Assembly: GCA_017643395.1 (NCBI GenBank)
Contig: JAEPNP010000003.1
Coordinates: 318,769-382,768, forward strand
Length of the DNA stretch: 64,000 nt
Direction: 5' to 3'
Source of the DNA: Rhodothermales bacterium
GTDB taxonomy: Bacteria > Bacteroidota > Rhodothermia > Rhodothermales > UBA10348
The stretch's first letter is position 1. Each line of letters starts with the position of its first letter. Positions 6,901 through 21,479 of the stretch are shown here, piece after piece. The translations under genes and the position numbers were made by a program. Below the pieces are notes generated by a model. It worked only from the letters and a program-made list of their open reading frames with translations, was not told the DNA's origin and ran no database searches.

Positions 6901-8071
6901 GTTGGTCCTCAATGATGGTGTAGACGTTGTCGTCGCCGATGCCCGTGTGCATCCGGACCTCGGACGGGATGTAGGCGTGCAGGCCCTTCTCGCTGCTGGC
7001 CCAGACGGTCCCGTTCGCGTCTTCGATCAGTCGGGTGAAGTTGGTGCCCTCGTCCAGGACCGTTCCATTGCGAACCAGGGTCGTTCCGGTGGCCATCCAG
7101 AGAATGCCGCGGCTGTCCACGAACTCGTGGCAGCCTCCAGCCCGAAGGGCCGAGAGCCGGGTGATCTTGCCGTCGTGATAGCGCCAAAGGCCATCCCGGG
7201 CGCGTCCGATCACAAACGCTCCGCCCGGCTCCCGTGCAAAACAGTTCCAGCCTCCCTCCAGTTCGAGGAACCACGTCGGGAGGTCCATGGAGACGCGCTC
7301 AAACCGGCTCCCGGAGAGGCGATACAGGGCCCCATCCGGTTCGAGGTGCCAGACCACACCCTCCGGATGCTCATAGATGGGACCTCCGGCCAGGAAGCGC
7401 CCGTCCACTCCGCGGAGGGGCCTCGCCTCGCCTTCCGTCCAGTCGATATAGCCCCTGATGTTATCCTTTGTCACGGCGAGGCGGCCGTCCCGGATCCAGA
7501 CCGTGACCTCCACCCCCGGAGCCTCCGGGAGTCTCATTTCTGCCGGACCCTCGATGTTGGTGACGCCCGACTCGGAGAACGCCAGCCAACGAGGCTTCTG
7601 CCCCGGGTACCACCCGCCCTGATGTACGTCCACGACGACGTTCGGCCCAGAAGACCGGACTCCCCGCTCGAATCGCTTTATCCAGCCATTGATGACCTCT
7701 CCACCGACCAACAGCGGCCCGAAGCTTCCGTCCGGTTGGCGGACAAACAGCCCGGTACCCTCCAATTCTATCAGGAGCTGTCCACCCGAAACGGCGGCCA
7801 CCCGCAACAGGCGATTGTTTGGAAAACCGTCCGAATTGCCGGCGTTGAATACCGTAAACTCCTGCCCGTCAAACCGCACCAGGCCTTCCACCGTGGCCAG
7901 CCACAGGAAGCCTCGCTCGTCCTGCGCCAGGTCCCGGACGGCGTTCACCGGCAGGCCGTCTTCCACGCCCCAAAATCGGTGAATGAACCGCGTGTCGTCC
8001 TGGGCATGGGCTCGGGATGGGTCCAGAGCGACGACCAAACTCGCGATGACTATGCAGACAGAAGGCCGCAT
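3998..8071 (-). CDS. Hybrid two-component system protein: propeller sensor, histidine kinase, receiver, AraC output
   Basis: A 1357-residue one-protein signalling system. A signal peptide (1-24) precedes two-component-type beta-propeller repeats (W-L-A-T-x-E-G-L-x-R-F and similar) to about 680, a Y_Y_Y domain (D-P-G-A-Y-T-F-E-V-R-A-R) and one membrane segment near 775-800. Then come HisKA with phosphoacceptor His near 860 (V-S-H-E-F-R-T-P-L), HATPase boxes (N-L-V-S-N-A-V-K, D-T-G-I-G, G-T-G-I-G-L), a receiver from about 1111 with the Asp near 1161 (C-D-V-M-M-P), and a C-terminal AraC HTH. Such proteins usually bind a periplasmic sugar oligomer and control a nearby uptake locus. No SusC/SusD pair is seen here, so the regulon is unclear. 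Confidence 0.95.
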   Translation of the reverse strand: MRPSVCIVIASLVVALDPSRAHAQDDTRFIHRFWGVEDGLPVNAVRDLAQDERGFLWLATVEGLVRFDGQEFTVFNAGNSDGFPNNRLLRVAAVSGGQLLIELEGTGLFVRQPDGSFGPLLVGGEVINGWIKRFERGVRSSGPNVVVDVHQGGWYPGQKPRWLAFSESGVTNIEGPAEMRLPEAPGVEVTVWIRDGRLAVTKDNIRGYIDWTEGEARPLRGVDGRFLAGGPIYEHPEGVVWHLEPDGALYRLSGSRFERVSMDLPTWFLELEGGWNCFAREPGGAFVIGRARDGLWRYHDGKITRLSALRAGGCHEFVDSRGILWMATGTTLVRNGTVLDEGTNFTRLIEDANGTVWASSEKGLHAYIPSEVRMHTGIGDDNVYTIIEDQHGRMWTSSWGLVTDWVFTDGAWREVPGSDGHPVGMAARDGRLFLDSHWTRTVPHRLPRPDEWQRVPYNHRGGPVRAIFEDSLGRIWLAAPGRDLWVIEGTGSSLVHQGAQFRTVAESEPGVVWLGSEKRGIARHKDGAFTFYGHEQGLGSNTIRWILTDPDVPDRLWVATEDNGLNRVDLDRDTADPVGIVHFTEREGLFRNGLHAVLQDDFGRLWMNTNYGVFWVWKDELNAVADGLRARVEPVVYTDREGLANREGNGGYSSAGLKSSDGHIWFPTQGGLAEFDPARISERPPPRAAILGMSANGSVAGPTLAPDERDFSIRFTAPDFTAPERLRFEYRLLGYDHEWRVTPAREVSFTNLDPGAYTFEVRARAHADAAPVAARVITILPFWYETLAFRLFMVLAAVGLVFGAGRLVSRQARERERRLNAQVAERTLDLRREKELTERQAAELRELNMAKSRFFANVSHEFRTPLTLIIGPLRQLLAREGHPDRESLELMQRNADRLLGMVNRILELARLESKTLPYEPECIDLSAHVRQTALGMTALAEREGLTLIVGAAPPLFALFDRGLMERIVTNLVSNAVKFTDRGGHVFVNVRSAGEHALIEVRDTGIGIAADKLPLIFDRFYQADPTSTRRYQGTGIGLSLVKELAELHGGHVSVESREGHGSTFLVRMPLVPDQLDGARQTITPDVRGDGPVSTTADLGADPSPAPGEEDRPTALLVDDNEDIRTFMRSALQATYAVVEAVDGRDALDHVERGLLPDVIVCDVMMPRMDGMELHRALQATPDTEGLPFIFLTALADDEHRLEGARSGADRYLTKPLDPALLLAEMAGVLESRRRLVDRLRGAMQVSAEPEAPFGPFERKVRAVVEERLADADLTSEDLAAQVGLSYSQLHRKLKAEADVTPTELVRRVRLEHAVALLEREDCTISEAAYAVGFNSLSYFNRCFKAVYGTSPSAFRQQA

Positions 8072-8235
8072 ACCCTAAAGATGCAGGATTTGGGCCGGGA
8101 TTTCCCGCACCATGCCCGCAGGGGCTTGCACGTATCTCGCCTGGTGGCGCTGGCACTCGATGTTCGGCGGCCAAGGCCCTACGGCGCTGCACGGGGAGAG
8201 TGTGGCCTACTGACGCCCATCGATTCTTTGCGCCA

Positions 8236-8261
8236 TGAACCGCCCCGGGTTTTTCGGAGAC
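8236..8261 (+). repeat. IS3 element terminal inverted repeat (transposase 3' side)
   Basis: It begins TGAACCGCCCCGGGTTT and continues to CGGAGAC. It matches the reverse complement of 9522-9547 except at two adjacent positions (TT here, GC there). Confidence 0.85.
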
Positions 8262-8265
8262 CGGT

Positions 8266-9497
8266 TTATGTGAGTGCCGCCTGAAGGGTGGTGTCTTCGA
8301 GGCGGTGGTGAAAGTGGTCCTCGCATTCTGCTGGCAGGTATCCAAGGGGTGCGAGAGCCGGTGGTTATTGTACCACCAGACCCACTCCAGCGTTGCCAGT
8401 TCGACGTCTTCAAGGCTCCGCCAAGGACCGCGGCGTCGGATTAGTTCGGTCTTGTAGAGTCCGATGACCGTCTCGGCCAAGGCGTTGTCGTACGAGTCGC
8501 CCTTGCTGCCCACCGACGGCTCGAGGGCCGCGTCGGCCAGGCGTTCGGTGTAGCGGATGGACAGATACTGGACGCCGCGGTCTGAATGATGGATGGGCGG
8601 CCGTTCCCAGCCGTGCTCGCGGTCCCAGAGAGCCTGCTCCAAGGCATCCAGAGCCAGGTCGCTCTTGAGCGAGTTCGATACCCTCCAGCCGACAATCCTG
8701 CGGGCAAAGGCGTCGATGACGAAGGCCACGTAGACGAAGCCGCGCCAGGTCGCCACGTAGGTCAAGTCCGATATCCACAGGCGATTCGGAGCGGCAACCT
8801 TGAACTGGCGATCCACCAGGTCCTCTGGCCGCTCCTCCACGCTCGCAGGAACGGTGGTGTAGACGCGGCGGCCACGAACAGCGCCCTTGAGGCCCATCTG
8901 ACGCATCAGGCGCGCCACCGTGCAGCGGGCCACGGAGAAGCCCTCCCTTAGCAGTTGCCGCCAGACCTTGCGGACTCCGTAGACCGAGTAGTTCTCCTCG
9001 AATACCCGCCGAATCTCGACAGAGAGTTCCTCGTCTCGTACCGATCGGGCGGACCGTGTCGACGGATCGCGTTCACGCTCTCTGAAAGCGTAGTAGGTGG
9101 ACGGAGCAATCGGCAAGACCTTGCAGATTGGCTCGACTCCATAGGCTTCTCGGTGATCGTTGATAAAGGCCACAATTACCGATGTCGGCGGTCGAGCTCC
9201 GCCTGGGCAAAATAGGCCGACGCCTTTCCGAAGGATCTCGTTGGCGCGTCGCAGTTCGCGGTTCTCACGCTCGAGTTCCTTCATCCGGGCGCGCTCCTCA
9301 GTCGTCACGCCCTCTCGCCGCCCCGTGTGTTGTTCTACTTGCCTTACCCAACGGCGGAGCGTCTCCTTGGTGCAGCCAATCTTCGGGGCTATGGCCTGGA
9401 TCGTCGCCCACTGGGAGCTGTGCTCGTGCTGGTGATCAAACACCATCCGGACGGCCCGCGCTCGGACCTCCGGAGAATACCGTGATGCTGGACTCAT
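8266..9497 (-). pseudogene. IS3-family transposase with two frame lesions
   Basis: From ATG 9495-9497 the frame encodes an OrfA-like HTH (W-A-T-I-Q-A-I-A-P-K-I-G-C-T-K-E-T-L-R), a leucine-zipper-like stretch, and then OrfB directly in the same frame. The DDE residues are present in W-I-S-D-L-T-Y, H-H-S-D-R-G-V-Q-Y and Y-D-N-A-L-A-E. In IS3 elements OrfB normally needs a -1 frameshift. Here the usual OrfA end (K-A-S-A-Y-F-A-Q-A-E-L-D-R-R, stop at 9176-9178) lies in the +1 frame, which implies an extra base near 9220-9230. Near the C-terminus the expected L-G-Y-L-P-A-E ending (stop 8266-8268) is in another frame, which implies a base missing from the G-run at 8346-8349. The uncorrected frame runs on into the sensor gene. 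Confidence 0.8.
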
Positions 9498-9928: not shown

Positions 9929-11413
9929 ATGTCGAAATTGGCCCGCGAAGCCCGCGCTCAACTCATCCTCGCTATCTCGGAACGCTACAGGCGGGCGGAC
10001 AAGACCGCGCGATCGGTCATCCTTGACGAGTTCGTCGCCGTCACCGGATTCCACCGCAAGCACGCGATTCGTGTGCTCAACGGCGGCCAGGAACTGCGCC
10101 CATCCACGCGAAGCGCTCGGCCGACGCTCTACGACGAGGCCGTCCGGCAGTCGCTGGTCGTCCTCCGGGAGGCGTCTGACCGCATTTGCGGGAAGCGGCT
10201 GAAGCCGCTGATTCCGCTCCTCATCGAATCTTTGGAACGGCATGGTCATCTGAATTTGGACAGCGTGGTGCGGTCAAAGCTACTTAAGGTGAGCGCCGCC
10301 ACCATTGATCGCCTGTTGGCCCCGGCCAGGCACGCGACGGGTGACAGGCGGCGACCCAGCAAGCCTCGCGTCAGAGCGAGCATCCCAGTCCGAACGGCCG
10401 GCGACCGGCCGTCCGATGTCCCCGGATTCGTGGAGGCGGATCTGGTCGCCCACTGCGGCGGAAGCATGGCGGGCAGCTTCGTGCACACCCTTGTTCTCAC
10501 GGATGTCGCTACGGGATGGGTGGAGTGCCTGCCGATCGCCGTGCGGGACGCCTCGATCGTCCTCGATGCCGTGCGAGCGATTCGACGGAGCCTACCCTTC
10601 CCGCTTCAGGGTCTGGATACCGACAATGGAACCGAGTTCGTGAACGCAGCAATGAAGGCCTACTGCGACGAGGAAGGAATTGAGTTCACGCGTTCGAGGC
10701 CCTACCGGAAGAACGATCAGGCCTGGGTGGAGCAGAAGAACGGTGCGGTCGTCCGGCGAATGGTCGGATACGGCCGGCTCGAGGGTGTCGCGGCTGCGGA
10801 ATCACCCGGGCGGCTCTACTCGGCGACGCGACTGTTCGTCAACTTCTACCAGCCGTCTTTCAAGCTGATCAGCAAGTCGCGGCATGGCGGAAGGACCCGC
10901 AAGCAGTACGAGACGCCCACGACTCCTGCGGCACGTCTCGCGGCACACCCGTCTCTTTCAGACGAGATGAAGTACCGGCTACGCGCGGTCACGCTGAGCA
11001 CCGATCCGCTACGGCTGCTCGAGGAGATCCGAGCCGTTCCGCACCACATCGCGAACCTGGCGGCCGGAGCCAAGCTCACCGGTGTACCAACACGCGACGC
11101 CGACCTCGACGCCTTTCTGGCCGGTCTATCCACCCTGTGGCGGTAAGGCGATCCCCGGCCGACACACCGCAAGCCGGCCAAGGCGAAGCGGTGGTGGCGA
11201 ACACACCCCGACGATTTCGAGGACGTCTGGCCGAAGGTTTTGACCTGGCTCAACACCGAACCACACCGGACCGCGAAGGAGCTCTTCGAGCGACTCCGGG
11301 AGGAGCACCCCGGCACCTTCTCTGACGGCCAGCTCCGCACGCTCCAGCGCCGGGTCAAGGCGTGGCGTGAGCAGGAGGCCCGGCGCCTAATCTTTGCCCA
11401 ATCACCAATCTGA
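9929..11413 (+). pseudogene. Integrase-core (rve/DDE) transposase interrupted by an in-frame TAA
   Basis: The ATG at 9929 opens a 405-codon frame ending in TAA at 11144-11146. It has an N-terminal helical DNA-binding part (F-V-A-V-T-G-F-H-R-K-H-A-I-R-V-L), and an rve domain with V-E-A-D, L-D-T-D-N-G-T-E-F and the catalytic E in D-Q-A-W-V-E-Q-K-N. Past the stop the same frame continues without interruption to TGA 11411-11413 and encodes the expected C-terminal piece: K-R-W-W-R-T-H-P-D-D-F, then T-A-K-E-L-F-E-R-L and G-Q-L-R-T-L-Q-R-R-V-K-A-W-R. The stop is therefore probably a single nonsense change in a 494-residue protein, leaving a truncated product unless it is read through. Confidence 0.85.
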
Positions 11414-15660: not shown

Positions 15661-16103
15661 CGATATCTGGACCGTATCGCTATACGAGGACCGACAAAGG
15701 AGCGATTTCCGTTCAAACTTCCTCCCGTCTTGTCGTCGGTCTGGACGTCCACAAAGACACGATTATGGCCTGCACATTTGATCCCGCCTCAGGGAAGATC
15801 GGCAAGGCCCGTCAGTTCAAGCACACGCCGGATCGGCTACACCGGTTCATTGATGGTCTTCGGGGCCCAGGGTTGGAACTCCAGGTCTGTTATGAGGCAT
15901 CCTCGTGTGGCTTCGTGATCTACCGGCAGCTCGCCGCGATGGGGGTGGCCTGCGCGGTGATTGCCCCGAAATCAATTCCGCGCCGAGCCGGCGACCGGAT
16001 CAAGACCGACCGCCGTGATGCGGAGAAGCTGGCTACCATGTACGCCGGTGGCCTCCTGGAGTCGGTCCGCGTTCCGGACAAAGAGCTCGAGCAAGTGCGG
16101 GTG
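15661..16103 (+). pseudogene. IS110-family transposase fragment (DEDD domain only) with its left-end leader
   Basis: In frame from about 15675 the sequence reads V-V-G-L-D-V-H-K-D-T-I, Y-E-A-S-S-C-G-F, and K-T-D-R-R-D-A-E-K-L, the DEDD N-terminal domain of IS110 transposases. The serine-containing C-terminal domain is absent; homology stops near V-R at 16103, where an IS3 fragment begins. An in-frame TAG at 15651-15653 and the lack of ATG, GTG or TTG before the domain suggest that the start was lost: the related leader at 9649 has GTG exactly where this copy has CCG. The bases before it may have encoded the element's guide (bridge) RNA. Confidence 0.75.
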
Positions 16104-16318
16104 ACCTGACCTGATTTTCTATACCACCCGCTATGCTAGGATTGGCGCAGGTTTGAGGTTTAGGCTCTGGGCAAACTCGGCGGGCGTTCTGTAGGCGAGA
16201 CTGCCGTGCGGATGTTCTTTGTTGTATTGCTGACGCCAGAGCTCGATCAGCGTCTTGGCCTCCAGCAGGCTGCCGAATTGCTCTCGGTCCAACACTTCGT
16301 CTCGAAGCCGGTTGAATG
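16104..16318 (-). pseudogene. C-terminal fragment of an IS3-family OrfB transposase
   Basis: On the minus strand from about 16318 to the stop at 16131-16133 the frame reads F-N-R-L-R-D-E-V-L-D-R-E-Q-F, W-R-Q-Q-Y-N-K-E-H-P-H-G-S-L-A-Y-R-T-P-A-E-F-A, the classic end of an IS3 integrase core. Everything upstream, including the DDE residues, is missing. The right end of this element seems to begin at TGACCTGATTTTC near 16106, inside the IS110 gene. It is a different element from the IS3 copy at 8.2-9.5 kb. Confidence 0.75.
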
Positions 16319-16939
16319 GAGATGTTAGAACGGCACGCGGGTACAACAGAAGATGTTGTCCATCATTTGAGACAGCTTGAGATAGACTTGGGTCATGGCC
16401 ACCCCACGCGCGAGGTCTCAATTGCCGACATTAGAGAATGCGCTATTCCGATGGCAAGGTTTCAGGGATTGGCGAAGACATATCTTCAGGACTGCGAGTG
16501 GGAGAGGTTTGAGAAAGAGCGTTTCCTCGGTAGAAGGGGGATCCAGCACGGAGATCTGCATCCCGCCAATGTCCTTTTGATAGACGAGAGGCCGCTGCTT
16601 ATCGATTACGAGAGGTACGAATCCAGCGCGCTACTCTGCACAGATCCCGTGACGCTGGAGTTCAGTCTCCTGTTCCACCCTGACGCCGTTCGTTGGCGTG
16701 GCGACTGGCCGTCAGAGGAGCAGGCGGCCGAATGGCACGACATTAACACCTACACCAGAAACTGCCCGGCGGCGGAGTTTGTAATCGCGTGCCGAGAGTG
16801 GGCTTACGCCACGGAAGAGGACCCGCGAGCTGTGGCTGCATCGGTCTACGCATACGCATGTCGTCAATTACGCTACCCGAAGACCGACAAGGCGCTCGCC
16901 ATAGCCCTCATCCGGAGGTCGATCGCCATGTTCGAATGA
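16316..16939 (+). pseudogene. Truncated aminoglycoside-phosphotransferase-like kinase (C-lobe)
   Basis: The open frame of 207 residues starts at an ATG created at the junction with the IS3 fragment. It has the catalytic loop H-G-D-L-H-P-A-N (residues 78-85) and the metal-binding L-I-D-Y-E (95-99) of APH/choline-kinase-fold enzymes, then helices to a natural stop. The N-lobe with its ATP-binding lysine is absent, so it is almost certainly a 5'-deleted gene. Similar stand-alone kinase domains occur in bacterial conflict loci, but that link is only a suggestion. The substrate is unknown. Confidence 0.6.
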
Positions 16940-17257: not shown

Positions 17258-18640
17258 CTATCGGACTCTTGCTGGTCTTGCCTCCATCTCCATCCGCATG
17301 CGATTCAGCCTCTGCTCTCGAGACATCTCTCTCTCATCGTGTGGGATAAGCCGTCCGGTGTTCACCACCAGGACTCTTGCGTCTGCTCGAATTGTCCCAA
17401 ACAGTCCCAGGAACAGGTGAAGACCGGCTATGCCGGAGGGTTCGGCAAGAATCCCGTTTGAGGCGGCAACCATCATCGCCTCTTGGGTGAACCGGGGGTC
17501 CACCTCGACAAGGCCTGACCCGCTACCACAGACTCCGCGAAATTCATCCATGATGCGATCCAAATGATGGGGCTGAGCGTGGTAGAGTTTGTCGAATTCA
17601 TCCTTGTCCTGCTCGTTTCGACAACATGCCCCGTAGAAGACACATTGGGACAGCCGTTCAGTGTCACCACGCCAACGAGGGTCTTTCGTATCCGCAGATA
17701 GTTGCTCCTTTAGTGTTCTCAGCGTCTTACGGAATAGATCTGCCGAACCGACAGGAATGAAGCAGTAGTCCGGATTGGTGTTGAGGATTTCGAACGCCAT
17801 CCAGTCGTAGTAGTCCTCTGTTATTCTCTCCAGGTCCGGACCAGTCCCAAGCGTCAGATCGATTCCACTGGGGTTGTTCGTCAGCCGGAGAATATCACGC
17901 GAGTCGAGGTCCTTCGGCTCAAGAGGACTCGTGAAAACCTCACAACCATCGGCCCTGAGCGAATCAATCATCCTTGGATTCGTTGCCTCGTCCACCAATA
18001 CCCTCAGCGGAGGCAGTGCCAGTCCCGTTGGTCCTTGCAGTTCTCGCTGAATCGCAGTCGCTGCCGAACCTGCGGACAGGATTGACAGGCACCTAGGTTC
18101 TCTCCCTGCGTCCCGGTCGTCTTCTACTGCCTTGGCGAAGGCCTTCGCGACCTCCCAGCCCAACCGATCCTTGTGAGTGCCGGACCGCCTATTGTAGCTC
18201 TCGTCCTTGACAAACAGGCAGAATCCTTTCGCTTCAATGGGAATGGTTGGCGTAGCCGGAAACAACGGTGCCTGCCTCGGGAACTCCGGATTGAATGGAT
18301 CACTTTCTGACACTGAGCTAGCGAACGTTCGAATAGCTCGAGCCTGGTCAAAGGGCGCCCGACGATCCAACCACAAAGCGAGCCCATCCTGGTTTCCCTT
18401 AATGAAGGAATAAATCCTCGCGAGAGTCGAGGTGAGGATCTGCTCCTCGTCATGCTCCTCAAGCTTGCTCAGTCTGTGCTCCAGATCTCGCAGGTACGTC
18501 GATCCCATCCCCATTTTCTGAGACAGACGTGCCTTTTGCTGTTCGCTGAGCAAGTATCTACCGAGTTCCGGATAGGCGTGCTTGTAGAGTTCGTCAAGTA
18601 GGCGATTGAGCTCCCCTTTTGACCACGCGTGTCTTGACAC
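17258..18640 (-). CDS. Fold-type II PLP enzyme related to threonine synthase, with N-terminal helical extension
   Basis: It has a GTG start with a GGGAAG-like site upstream. In the 460-residue product, residues 1-85 form an unrecognised helical domain (L-L-D-E-L-Y-K-H-A-Y-P-E-L-G). From about 125 a tryptophan-synthase-beta/threonine-synthase fold follows: K-D-E-S-Y-N-R-R-S-G-T-H-K-D-R with the PLP lysine at 157, S-A-G-S-A-A-T-A (189-196) for the cofactor phosphate region, V-G-S-A-D-L-F (297-303) and A-E-P-S-G-I-A-G (399-406). By family it catalyses a beta- or gamma-replacement or elimination on an amino acid. It is not an ordinary threonine synthase: the glycine-rich loops deviate and the gene stands in an island, facing away from the cyclohydrolase-like gene at 19446. 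Confidence 0.75.
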   Translation of the reverse strand: MSRHAWSKGELNRLLDELYKHAYPELGRYLLSEQQKARLSQKMGMGSTYLRDLEHRLSKLEEHDEEQILTSTLARIYSFIKGNQDGLALWLDRRAPFDQARAIRTFASSVSESDPFNPEFPRQAPLFPATPTIPIEAKGFCLFVKDESYNRRSGTHKDRLGWEVAKAFAKAVEDDRDAGREPRCLSILSAGSAATAIQRELQGPTGLALPPLRVLVDEATNPRMIDSLRADGCEVFTSPLEPKDLDSRDILRLTNNPSGIDLTLGTGPDLERITEDYYDWMAFEILNTNPDYCFIPVGSADLFRKTLRTLKEQLSADTKDPRWRGDTERLSQCVFYGACCRNEQDKDEFDKLYHAQPHHLDRIMDEFRGVCGSGSGLVEVDPRFTQEAMMVAASNGILAEPSGIAGLHLFLGLFGTIRADARVLVVNTGRLIPHDEREMSREQRLNRMRMEMEARPARVR

Positions 18641-18891: not shown

Positions 18892-19051
18892 CTCGGTGTC
18901 GCGACCTCCGTCGGCGTTGGCGCCGAGTACGCCTTGATTGGAGGTCCTAGGCTCTAGATGGCGCTCAAAAACTCGGTGTCGCGACCTCCGTCGGCGTTGG
19001 CGCCGAGTACGCCTTGATTGGAGGTCCTAGGCTCTAGATGGCGCTCAAAAA
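18892..19051. repeat. Perfect 80-bp tandem duplication
   Basis: Bases 18892-18971 and 18972-19051 are identical. Within each unit CTCGGTGTC (1-9) can pair with GGCGCCGAG (28-36), counting G-T pairs, while GACCTCC (12-18) can pair with GGAGGTC (49-55). The two helices exclude each other, so each unit could adopt alternative folds. Each unit ends in GCGCTCAAAAA. The absence of any difference points to a recent duplication or to selection on the sequence. Confidence 0.9.
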
Positions 19052-19445: not shown

Positions 19446-20225
19446 ATGTCTTTTGGTTCAACTGAGCATCCCCACCAACCCGGCGGAGGCATCCCTCTGT
19501 GTCCCGAAGTGGTCCAGAAGGCCATGGAACCCGACCGTTGTGTGGTCGAAGCGGTCGGAGGCCCGGCCGGAGGGTTTATCACGTTGACCCGGGTTGGCGT
19601 CGGTCCGCTCCTGACGCCGGCTGGGAGGTTCTGGATGTACCAGTTCGTCGCCGATGACGAATGGGGGAACTACCAGGCTCTGGTTAAGGTCGATGAGCTT
19701 GGTCAAGACCTGCGGCCTCGCTTCGTGCGAGACGAGTCACTGCTGGTACGCCTTGACTCCGGCTGCGCCACCGGCCAGGTGTTTTCGGATGTAACATGCG
19801 AGTGTTCCGAGCAACTCCGGCTGGCCATGGAGCGCATCCAGCGGTCTGGCCAGGGCGTGGTAGTCCACTGCCGGGCCCAAGATGGCCGTGGAATGGGCAC
19901 CGCCTTCAAGTTGGGGACGCTCTGGATGCAAAGCGATTGGGGCCTCGATACCGTCGGGGCTGCCGTGGCCCTCGCCGGAAGCCAGCACATCGACCGTCGC
20001 ACATATGGTGGGATGATCGCCGTGCTGCAGTACCTCGGGGTGCGTCAGTCCCAACCGATAACGGTTGCGACCAACAACCCTGACAAAATCGCGGCGTTCA
20101 TCTCCAACGGATTCTCGGAGGTCAAGCGCCAGGAAATCGTCATCGGAGCTACTCGACACACGGGTAGGCACCTTAGGGCGAAGGCAGAGCACCTTGGCCA
20201 CCTCGGACTGGGGGCGCGGTCGTGA
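19446..20225 (+). CDS. GTP cyclohydrolase II-like protein (RibA family, divergent)
   Basis: A 259-residue protein. The zinc cysteines of RibA are present as S-G-C (107) and C-E-C (118, 120), followed by S-E-Q-L, H-C-R-A-Q-D-G-R-G-M-G, D-R-R-T-Y-G (183-188, matching the catalytic Asp and Arg of RibA), N-N-P-D-K (210-214) and A-K-A-E-H-L-G-H-L near the end. The family opens the imidazole ring of GTP. The position equivalent to E. coli RibA Tyr105 is Leu159 by hand alignment; in Streptomyces paralogs a change at this Tyr is reported to stop the reaction at the formamide intermediate. The H-S-E before the first cysteine is D-S-G here. No other riboflavin genes are nearby, so a specialised product is more likely than flavin. 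The stop overlaps the next start. Confidence 0.8.
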   Translation: MSFGSTEHPHQPGGGIPLCPEVVQKAMEPDRCVVEAVGGPAGGFITLTRVGVGPLLTPAGRFWMYQFVADDEWGNYQALVKVDELGQDLRPRFVRDESLLVRLDSGCATGQVFSDVTCECSEQLRLAMERIQRSGQGVVVHCRAQDGRGMGTAFKLGTLWMQSDWGLDTVGAAVALAGSQHIDRRTYGGMIAVLQYLGVRQSQPITVATNNPDKIAAFISNGFSEVKRQEIVIGATRHTGRHLRAKAEHLGHLGLGARS

Positions 20226-20788
20226 AGGATCGAGCATGGACCGGTGTGCTTGCCGTCTCAGGTCCGTCGGGCGTCGGTAAGACAACTCTGCGCCAAGCGC
20301 TGCGCGCGCGCGACGGGCGCTTCGAGAACGTCGCAGCATTTACCACACGACCCATCCGCCCGGGCGATTCAGATAGACTCCACATTTCCGACCAGGAGAT
20401 GGACCGATTGATTTCTTCAGAGCATTGCATTGGCGTCAACGATGTCTACGGTGCGAGATACGCAACGCCTGTACGCCCCATCACGGATGTGGTAAGGCAA
20501 GGGAAGGTCGCTGTGCTAGACTGGCCGTGCGATCGCATTGGCGAACTCCGGTCGACGTTTAGGGCAGAATGCGCCGTCGTTTATCTGATCCCCCCGAACA
20601 GTCGGGTACTTCGGGAACGACTTACAGCCGACACGAGAGATCCGTCGGGCGAGCGACTACGGCTTGCGATAGAGGAACTGTACAGGATCCGGGCGTCCGG
20701 CTACGCCCATGTTGACCATGTCCTCACAACAGCCTCCGATCCGCGCGAATTGGCGAGGGTAGTTGAACAGCTCTTGGCCAACGCATAA
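20222..20788 (+). CDS. Guanylate-kinase-like P-loop kinase
   Basis: It starts at GTG 20222, overlapping the previous TGA (GTGA). The 188-residue product has a P-loop G-P-S-G-V-G-K-T-T (14-22), F-T-T-R-P-I-R-P-G-D (40-49), V-Y-G-A-R-Y-A-T-P (75-83), V-L-D-W-P (98-102) and the V-V-Y-L-I-P-P-N strand (119-126), the order found in guanylate kinase. Several residues that hold GMP in true Gmk differ: the Glu of P-G-E is Asp, the Tyr of x-Y-F-F is Leu, and Y-Y-G-T is R-Y-A-T. It may phosphorylate a modified guanine nucleotide or its ring-opened derivative. PhnN-type kinases are an alternative relative. The housekeeping gmk should be elsewhere. Confidence 0.75.
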   Translation: MKDRAWTGVLAVSGPSGVGKTTLRQALRARDGRFENVAAFTTRPIRPGDSDRLHISDQEMDRLISSEHCIGVNDVYGARYATPVRPITDVVRQGKVAVLDWPCDRIGELRSTFRAECAVVYLIPPNSRVLRERLTADTRDPSGERLRLAIEELYRIRASGYAHVDHVLTTASDPRELARVVEQLLANA

Positions 20789-20799
20789 ACCAAGCGAAC

Positions 20800-21129
20800 G
20801 TGGGAAAGAGAAAGCTTCGTCGCGATCGTTTCTTCAGTGCCCGTGGTGGAACTGCGACCATCTTGTCTATCCGTTGTGCGCGATGTGGTGCCATTCTTCT
20901 AGAGTATCAGAAAGACGGCCGCGGGAGGCTATTCCGACTGTACGCCGACAGGATCAGGAGTACCCATCGCATGCTGGCACCAATGCTCAAAACAACTAGC
21001 GTATCGGAAATGTCACCGCTGATTTGTCCGGATTGCGACTCAATTCTGGGTATTCCGACTGTCTACGAGCGCGAGGGACGGTTGGCCTGGCGACTCCAGA
21101 GAGGAAGTATCCAAACCGCGCGGCGATAA
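20800..21129 (+). CDS. Small zinc-ribbon protein of the cassette
   Basis: It has a GTG start eleven bases after the kinase stop. The 109-residue basic protein has one C-A-R-C pair and, about 45 residues later, C-P-D-C, forming a four-cysteine zinc ribbon interrupted by a basic helix (L-Y-A-D-R-I-R-S-T-H-R-M-L). The end E-R-E-G-R-L-A-W-R-L is strand-like. Such a module could bind RNA or a nucleotide or serve as a scaffold. Its position makes it the last gene of the rightward operon. No family name comes to mind. Confidence 0.65.
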   Translation: MGKRKLRRDRFFSARGGTATILSIRCARCGAILLEYQKDGRGRLFRLYADRIRSTHRMLAPMLKTTSVSEMSPLICPDCDSILGIPTVYEREGRLAWRLQRGSIQTARR

Positions 21130-21405
21130 GTCACCTACCCCGCACCACAGCAGGAGTCTCGGCCGCGGCTAGGGTTGAACTCACGGACCCTGCGTGCAAG
21201 CCTCTGTCGTAACTCATATGCCCGCAGACAGGGGGGCGATCCGATTGTGCCGCGTGCAACTCCAATGTGTGGTCGAACTGCCGCGGGGGGCCGCAGAGAC
21301 GTAGCGCGACAAGCCCCAGAGCTGAGCCTTGCAGCATAATGTGTCACCACGGTGGCACCATGCCGGGCTAACGCCTTGCACAGCAAGGGGTTATTCTATC
21401 CTGTG
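21130..21405. other. Gene-free stretch between the cassette and tRNA-Val
   Basis: 276 bases with no credible gene. GTGTCACCACGGTGGCAC near 21340 is an imperfect inverted repeat. On the minus strand a stretch near 21168-21194 vaguely resembles a tRNA T-arm but does not fold as one. This is where an island attachment site would be expected, yet no exact copy of the tRNA 3' end is seen. Confidence 0.35.
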
Positions 21406-21479
21406 TGGGTCCTAGTGGATTCGAACCACCGACCTCTACGATGTCAACGTAGCGCTCTAACCAACTGAGCTAAGGACCC
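21406..21479 (-). tRNA. tRNA-Val (anticodon GAC)
   Basis: The reverse complement folds as a complete cloverleaf: acceptor GGGTCCT pairs with AGGACCC, D-arm G-C-T-C-A-G-T-T-G-G-T-T-A-G-A-G-C, anticodon stem CTACG/CGTAG around loop TTGACAT (anticodon GAC), variable loop, T-arm with GGTTCGAATCC, discriminator A. The 3' CCA is not encoded. Its 3' end faces the accessory region, as expected for an island insertion site. Confidence 0.95.

Follow-up and report, generated by a model that had tools for sequence, protein, structure and literature searches.

A divergent GTP cyclohydrolase II paralog lacking the active-site tyrosine, with a guanylate-kinase-like partner, in a Rhodothermales genome and in archaea

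Background

GTP cyclohydrolase II (GCHII, RibA) is usually taken as a riboflavin enzyme, represented here by the proteins of Escherichia coli (2bz0), H. pylori (4rl4) and M. tuberculosis (RibBA, 4i14). Its active-site Tyr105 is needed for the full deformylating reaction. GCHII paralogs of Streptomyces reportedly obey a Tyr/Met rule at this position (Spoonamore and Bandarian), and the paralogs that form formylamino-pyrimidine (FAPy) nucleotides are of the SCO6655 type. The sequence of this kind compared here, from a plasmid of Streptomyces fungicidicus (L023, 4110-5603), has Met at Tyr105 and is divergently placed from a creatininase-family gene. The creatininase family is that of the known FAPy deformylases (BrbF, PMC9478397), and this neighbor is possibly the FAPy deformylase of the plasmid GCHII. 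A more distant relative, UTP cyclohydrolase (URC1; 7eev, 7ej3; locus L085), has the zinc cysteines and the fold of GCHII, Tyr at position 105, Tyr in place of Gln70, no TNNP motif and a DUF1688 neighbor.

The gene described here lies in a 64,000-nucleotide stretch of the genome of a Rhodothermales bacterium (the window). Its product resembles RibA in fold, zinc cysteines, the Asp126/Arg128 pair, Gln70, the TNNP-K positions and their spacing, but it differs in having Leu for Tyr105, Asp for His51, Asp115 and Thr117 for Ser and Arg, and an N-terminal extension of about 45 residues. In contrast to ribA, the gene also stands beside guanylate-kinase-like and four-cysteine protein genes and is not tied to riboflavin genes.

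Gene content and setting of the locus

The features of the region that are relevant to this analysis are as follows.

16316-16939, + strand: phosphotransferase (APH)-like / TCAD9 fragment, part of the island that holds the RibA-like gene
17258-18640, - strand: PLP-dependent enzyme, 460 aa
19434..19439, + strand: Shine-Dalgarno AGGAGG, read from the sequence, 6 nt 5' of the ATG
19446..20225, + strand: GCHII-like protein (RibA paralog), 259 aa, ATG start; Pfam GTP_cyclohydro2, E=1.5e-26
20222..20788, + strand: guanylate-kinase-like P-loop protein, 188 aa; Pfam Guanylate_kin, E=6e-15
20800..21129, + strand: small four-cysteine protein, probably zinc-binding, 109 aa, with two CXXC pairs (C26/C29 and C76/C79)

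The end of the RibA-like gene and the start of the guanylate-kinase-like gene share 4 nt, and the four-cysteine gene begins 11 nt past the kinase-like gene. Because of this spacing, we infer that the three genes probably form one operon; a promoter scan of the region gave nothing above chance. The kinase-like protein has the P-loop GPSGVGKT at residue 14 and TTRPIRPGD at residue 41, in agreement with the motif TTRxxRxG, and its score of 78 bits is below the guanyl_kin equivalog cut-off of 160. The four-cysteine protein matched no Pfam or NCBIfam family. Its structural model has a pLDDT of 64, and the top folds found with it are bacterial cereblon-type CULT domains, at non-significant values (best E 0.11). 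Beta-tent-type Pfam matches were seen, below threshold, for two of its homologs, so that the model gives a hint only of a beta-tent fold.

Transposase genes and remnants are found on one side of the region (7872-9497, 9929-11143 and about 15765-16421) and a tRNA-Val gene on the other (21405-21479), and most of the region has a lower G+C content than the downstream stretch. The tRNA-Val gene was considered as an integration site and set aside, as a second copy of its 3' end was not found in the window. The PLP-dependent enzyme was not included in the module: it is divergently placed, and searches of plasmids and, at E <= 1e-20, of 384 other genomes from the phylum gave no homolog. PADLOC produced no convincing match to a known defence family. 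In the intergenic stretch 5' of the RibA-like gene, 80 bp are perfectly duplicated head-to-tail (18892-19051).

Diagnostic residues of the RibA-like protein

The first-pass annotation of the gene had assigned the zinc cysteines to C107, C118 and C120, and the numbering is right; C107-X2-G110-X7-C118-X-C120 fits the triad CX2GX7CXC. The Asp/Arg pair it had named, D183/R185, corresponds to E. coli D126/R128 and is retained, as are the Gln70 and TNNP-K positions. As the zinc cysteines, D183, R185, Q70 and TNNP-K are all present, a catalytic GCHII-type site is likely in this protein. The AF2 model of the 259 residues (pLDDT 82.5) has E. coli RibA 2bz0 as its best PDB match (Z 18.4), followed by the H. 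pylori GCHII and then by UTP cyclohydrolase (Z 16.5). Scores against the RibA equivalogs are below the cut-offs: 106 vs 205.85 bits for TIGR00505, and 107 vs 148 for PRK00393.

The central claim of the first-pass annotation, that L159 occupies the position of E. coli Tyr105, was confirmed by the pairwise alignment with 2bz0, by an independent clade profile built from 10 sequences and by the multiple alignment. The E. coli RibA sequence of the multiple alignments matches that of 2bz0 over the stretch compared. An ungapped reading anchored on the right would place W160 at Tyr105, and a one-residue insertion after Q162 resolves the discrepancy. Other members of the clade have Leu at the same position, in contexts such as KLATLTLQ, KLGTLMLQ and KYATLALQ. 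A replacement of H-S-E by D-S-G before the first cysteine had also been proposed. The change is real, and its informative part is that of His51 to D104; the loss of the Glu is not diagnostic, E53 being variable even among canonical enzymes (E/Q/K/G/R). Other changes include QEGR to QDGR (D146, where some clade members retain E), Ser to D115, Arg to T117, His to Y76 and Tyr to H242.

The residues separate the protein from the Streptomyces paralog of L023 and from URC1. The L023 protein shares the non-aromatic residue at Tyr105, but retains His51 and Glu53 as H-S-E, has the creatininase-family neighbor and occupies another position in the tree, whereas the window clade has Asp at His51 and no linked deformylase. 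An identity as UTP cyclohydrolase was rejected on the residues and on the clade profile, which scores 100-108 bits to GTP cyclohydrolase II vs 24 bits to UTP cyclohydrolase; no DUF1688 gene stands beside the window gene.

Phylogeny and distribution

A clade with support of 100/100 unites the window protein with 12 proteins of archaea, from the phylum to which a Micrarchaeota genome belongs. Within it, the window protein is sister to the protein of archaeal locus L070, genome G466 (92/85). The Tyr105 column of the clade contains Leu in 11 sequences and His in two, and every canonical sequence sampled has Tyr, so the Leu of the window protein is not a chance substitution. Asp in place of His51 is a marker of the clade (13/13), the canonical residue being His. 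Kept across the clade are the zinc cysteines, D126, R128, N150, N151 and K154, and the residues invariant in a clade-specific manner include W73, Y76, D115, T117 and G189. The conservation bears on the possibility that catalysis was lost and that the protein binds GTP as a regulator inside the module. The several active-site substitutions would agree with this, as would Lys for R49 and Ala for T149 in some archaeal members. However, the zinc ligands, the Asp/Arg pair and the Lys are invariant in 13/13 full-length members, and a non-catalytic role is very unlikely.

Among 394 genomes of the window's phylum no ortholog of the RibA-like protein was found, and there was none in phages, plasmids or viral contigs. 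A phage origin was accordingly dropped, the phage records and viral contigs having no orthologs; the matches in plasmids are at the canonical level only. The four-cysteine protein occurs in one of 247 genomes of the phylum, and within the genomes searched the trio is present in a single bacterial genome; a weak four-cysteine match in Pseudoalteromonas was discarded, since its neighbors are not shared. In contrast, a scan of genome contigs revealed an ortholog (E 2e-47) on a contig of an uncultured Candidatus Micrarchaeota (L025), beside a four-cysteine homolog (35% identity, E 1e-17), OMP decarboxylase and two CMP-kinase-like genes. Ten more genomes with orthologs (E below 1e-44), two of them with tandem pairs, were found among 295 genomes of the archaeal phylum. 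In G466 a single gene encodes the RibA-like domain fused with OMP decarboxylase, and the gene that follows after 4 nt joins a guanylate-kinase-like domain and the four-cysteine protein; all three proteins of the window operon thus recur together in an archaeon, on a contig that also encodes a family B DNA polymerase and SecY. Four-cysteine homologs are present at L025, L070 and L076. In G412, G466 and G499, the three archaea with both genes, the four-cysteine gene lies beside or close to the RibA-like gene; in G499 it is 5' of a shortened RibA-like gene. The kinase partner was detected in only one of the 11 archaeal carriers, and the four-cysteine protein is also found in 22 archaeal genomes in which the window-type RibA-like protein was not.

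We favor the view that the window gene was acquired horizontally and belongs to a distinct GCHII subfamily outside riboflavin synthesis, which the bacterium shares with DPANN-type archaea. No description of the three-protein module was found in the literature searched on GCHII and on UTP cyclohydrolase.

The gene neighborhoods raise two other possible substrates. The first is a pyrimidine nucleotide, UTP-like, opened as by UTP cyclohydrolase alongside pyrimidine enzymes. This would account for the OMP decarboxylase, fused in L070 and adjacent in L025, where the two CMP-kinase-like genes then follow, and 7eev aligns structurally over 213 residues (Z 16.5), part of the N-terminal extension included. 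On the other hand, the sequence profile prefers GCHII by about 75 bits, Q70 and TNNP are kept here and both changed in URC1, URC1 keeps Tyr105 and His51, and the partner in the window and in G466 is guanylate-kinase-like. A pyrimidine substrate is therefore decidedly improbable. The second is a damaged or non-canonical guanine nucleotide such as 8-oxo-GTP, which the enzyme would destroy in nucleotide house-cleaning, with the kinase recycling or sorting nucleotides. Hydrolysis of 8-oxo-dGTP has been reported for the canonical RibA of E. coli, and in some archaea the four-cysteine homologs have Ham1 ITPase-, CYTH-like and NUDIX-type genes in their vicinity (L105-L107). Yet no residue of the clade indicates an 8-oxo substrate, the classified genes at the RibA-like loci of the carriers include no Ham1 or NUDIX neighbors, and the OMP decarboxylase fusion would be left unexplained, which makes house-cleaning a rather unlikely function.

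Separation from riboflavin synthesis

Lumazine synthase is absent in 10 of the 11 archaeal carriers and present in 6/6 archaea chosen as carriers of canonical RibA; incomplete genomes could account for single absences, but not easily for 10/11 vs 6/6. The window genome has a normal RibA match elsewhere (G000:C1:1213255, in a 436-aa open frame read as RibBA) as well as lumazine synthase, and its RibA-like gene is unlinked to riboflavin genes. Since most carriers are without lumazine synthase, and since separate genes encode RibBA and lumazine synthase in the window genome, the window RibA-like protein is not the riboflavin enzyme. These observations also weigh against an ordinary, complete GCHII kept as a spare RibA, in which another residue would stand in for Tyr105 and formate would be released. 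Such an enzyme would be consistent with the retained catalytic core, and the clade offers a candidate residue in Tyr76, invariant where canonical enzymes have His. It does not fit the missing lumazine synthase, the RibBA already present in the window genome or the strong clade-specific divergence at His51, and we consider it improbable.

Proposed reaction

The reading we prefer, with a probability of about 0.36, is a non-riboflavin GCHII subfamily in a nucleotide module, in which GTP is opened, the formyl group is kept and the kinase phosphorylates the product. Ring opening with pyrophosphate release by the window protein is plausible because the zinc site and the Asp/Arg pair are kept: these, with D183/R185 as the pair, would open the imidazole ring of GTP as in RibA. 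For lack of the Tyr105 phenol, formate would not be released from N7 in a second hydrolysis, and a formylamino-pyrimidine nucleotide (FAPy-GMP / AFRPP) would leave the enzyme. As this product would retain the 2-amino-4-oxo face of guanine, the guanylate-kinase-like neighbor could take the ring-opened GMP and phosphorylate it to the diphosphate. A possible role of the four-cysteine protein is to bind the product. All three assignments, of product, of kinase substrate and of a function for the four-cysteine protein, are putative.

A putative formyl-retaining product fits the loss of Tyr by the Streptomyces precedent. The first-pass annotation had suggested such a product on the strength of this residue, and the suggestion was upheld in part. 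Tyr is indeed lost throughout the clade, and the rule that without Tyr the formyl group is kept is plausible, because the Tyr-to-Met paralog of L023 adjoins a creatininase-family gene. Extrapolation from one residue is nevertheless unsafe, because the clade has Asp for His51 and an invariant Tyr76, and L023 keeps H-S-E; these and the other changes of the clade may alter substrate or chemistry beyond the Tyr rule. No creatininase-family gene was found in 17 archaeal genomes. In a bolder version, which we regard as quite unlikely, the module would be cross-domain and make FAPy-GMP on purpose, the kinase converting it to FAPy-GDP/GTP and the four-cysteine (beta-tent-like) protein reading it, as an undescribed nucleotide pathway or signal.

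Other divergent GCHII families

A second family of GCHII without Tyr, with Leu or Met at Tyr105 and the motifs QSAC and DGRGAGL, is paired with SLATT/DUF4231-like genes. Its loci (L016, 5517-6633; L019, 4962-8609; L026-L040, around 7144-8648; L031, 5415-6621) come from Pseudomonadota, Actinomycetota, Cyanobacteriota and Acidobacteriota. The SLATT/DUF4231-like gene is directly 5' of the GCHII gene in 17/17 intact loci, and L019 has an IS66 element between the two. These loci look like a two-gene system of nucleotide enzyme and membrane effector, for which no paper naming such a system was found in the literature searched. The window protein resembles this family in the replaced Tyr105, the changed His51 and the DGRG motif, but it has DSGC rather than QSAC and no adjoining SLATT-like gene. 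The SLATT-paired proteins, in contrast, have Gln at His51, form their own clade (100/100) and are without the kinase and four-cysteine partners of the window.

Both families stand outside the riboflavin pathway, and their different gene partners suggest that cells use or handle ring-opened guanine nucleotides for purposes other than making the vitamin. Annotation pipelines likely call such genes just GTP cyclohydrolase II, as is the case for L016 and L019.

A third class of GCHII is found in the same archaeal phylum (L111-L122), with the motif SxCxTSELFHAxNCECREEL. In this class Gln70 is replaced by Glu, Arg94 by Ala or Gly and Asp126 mostly by Glu, and His51 is kept.
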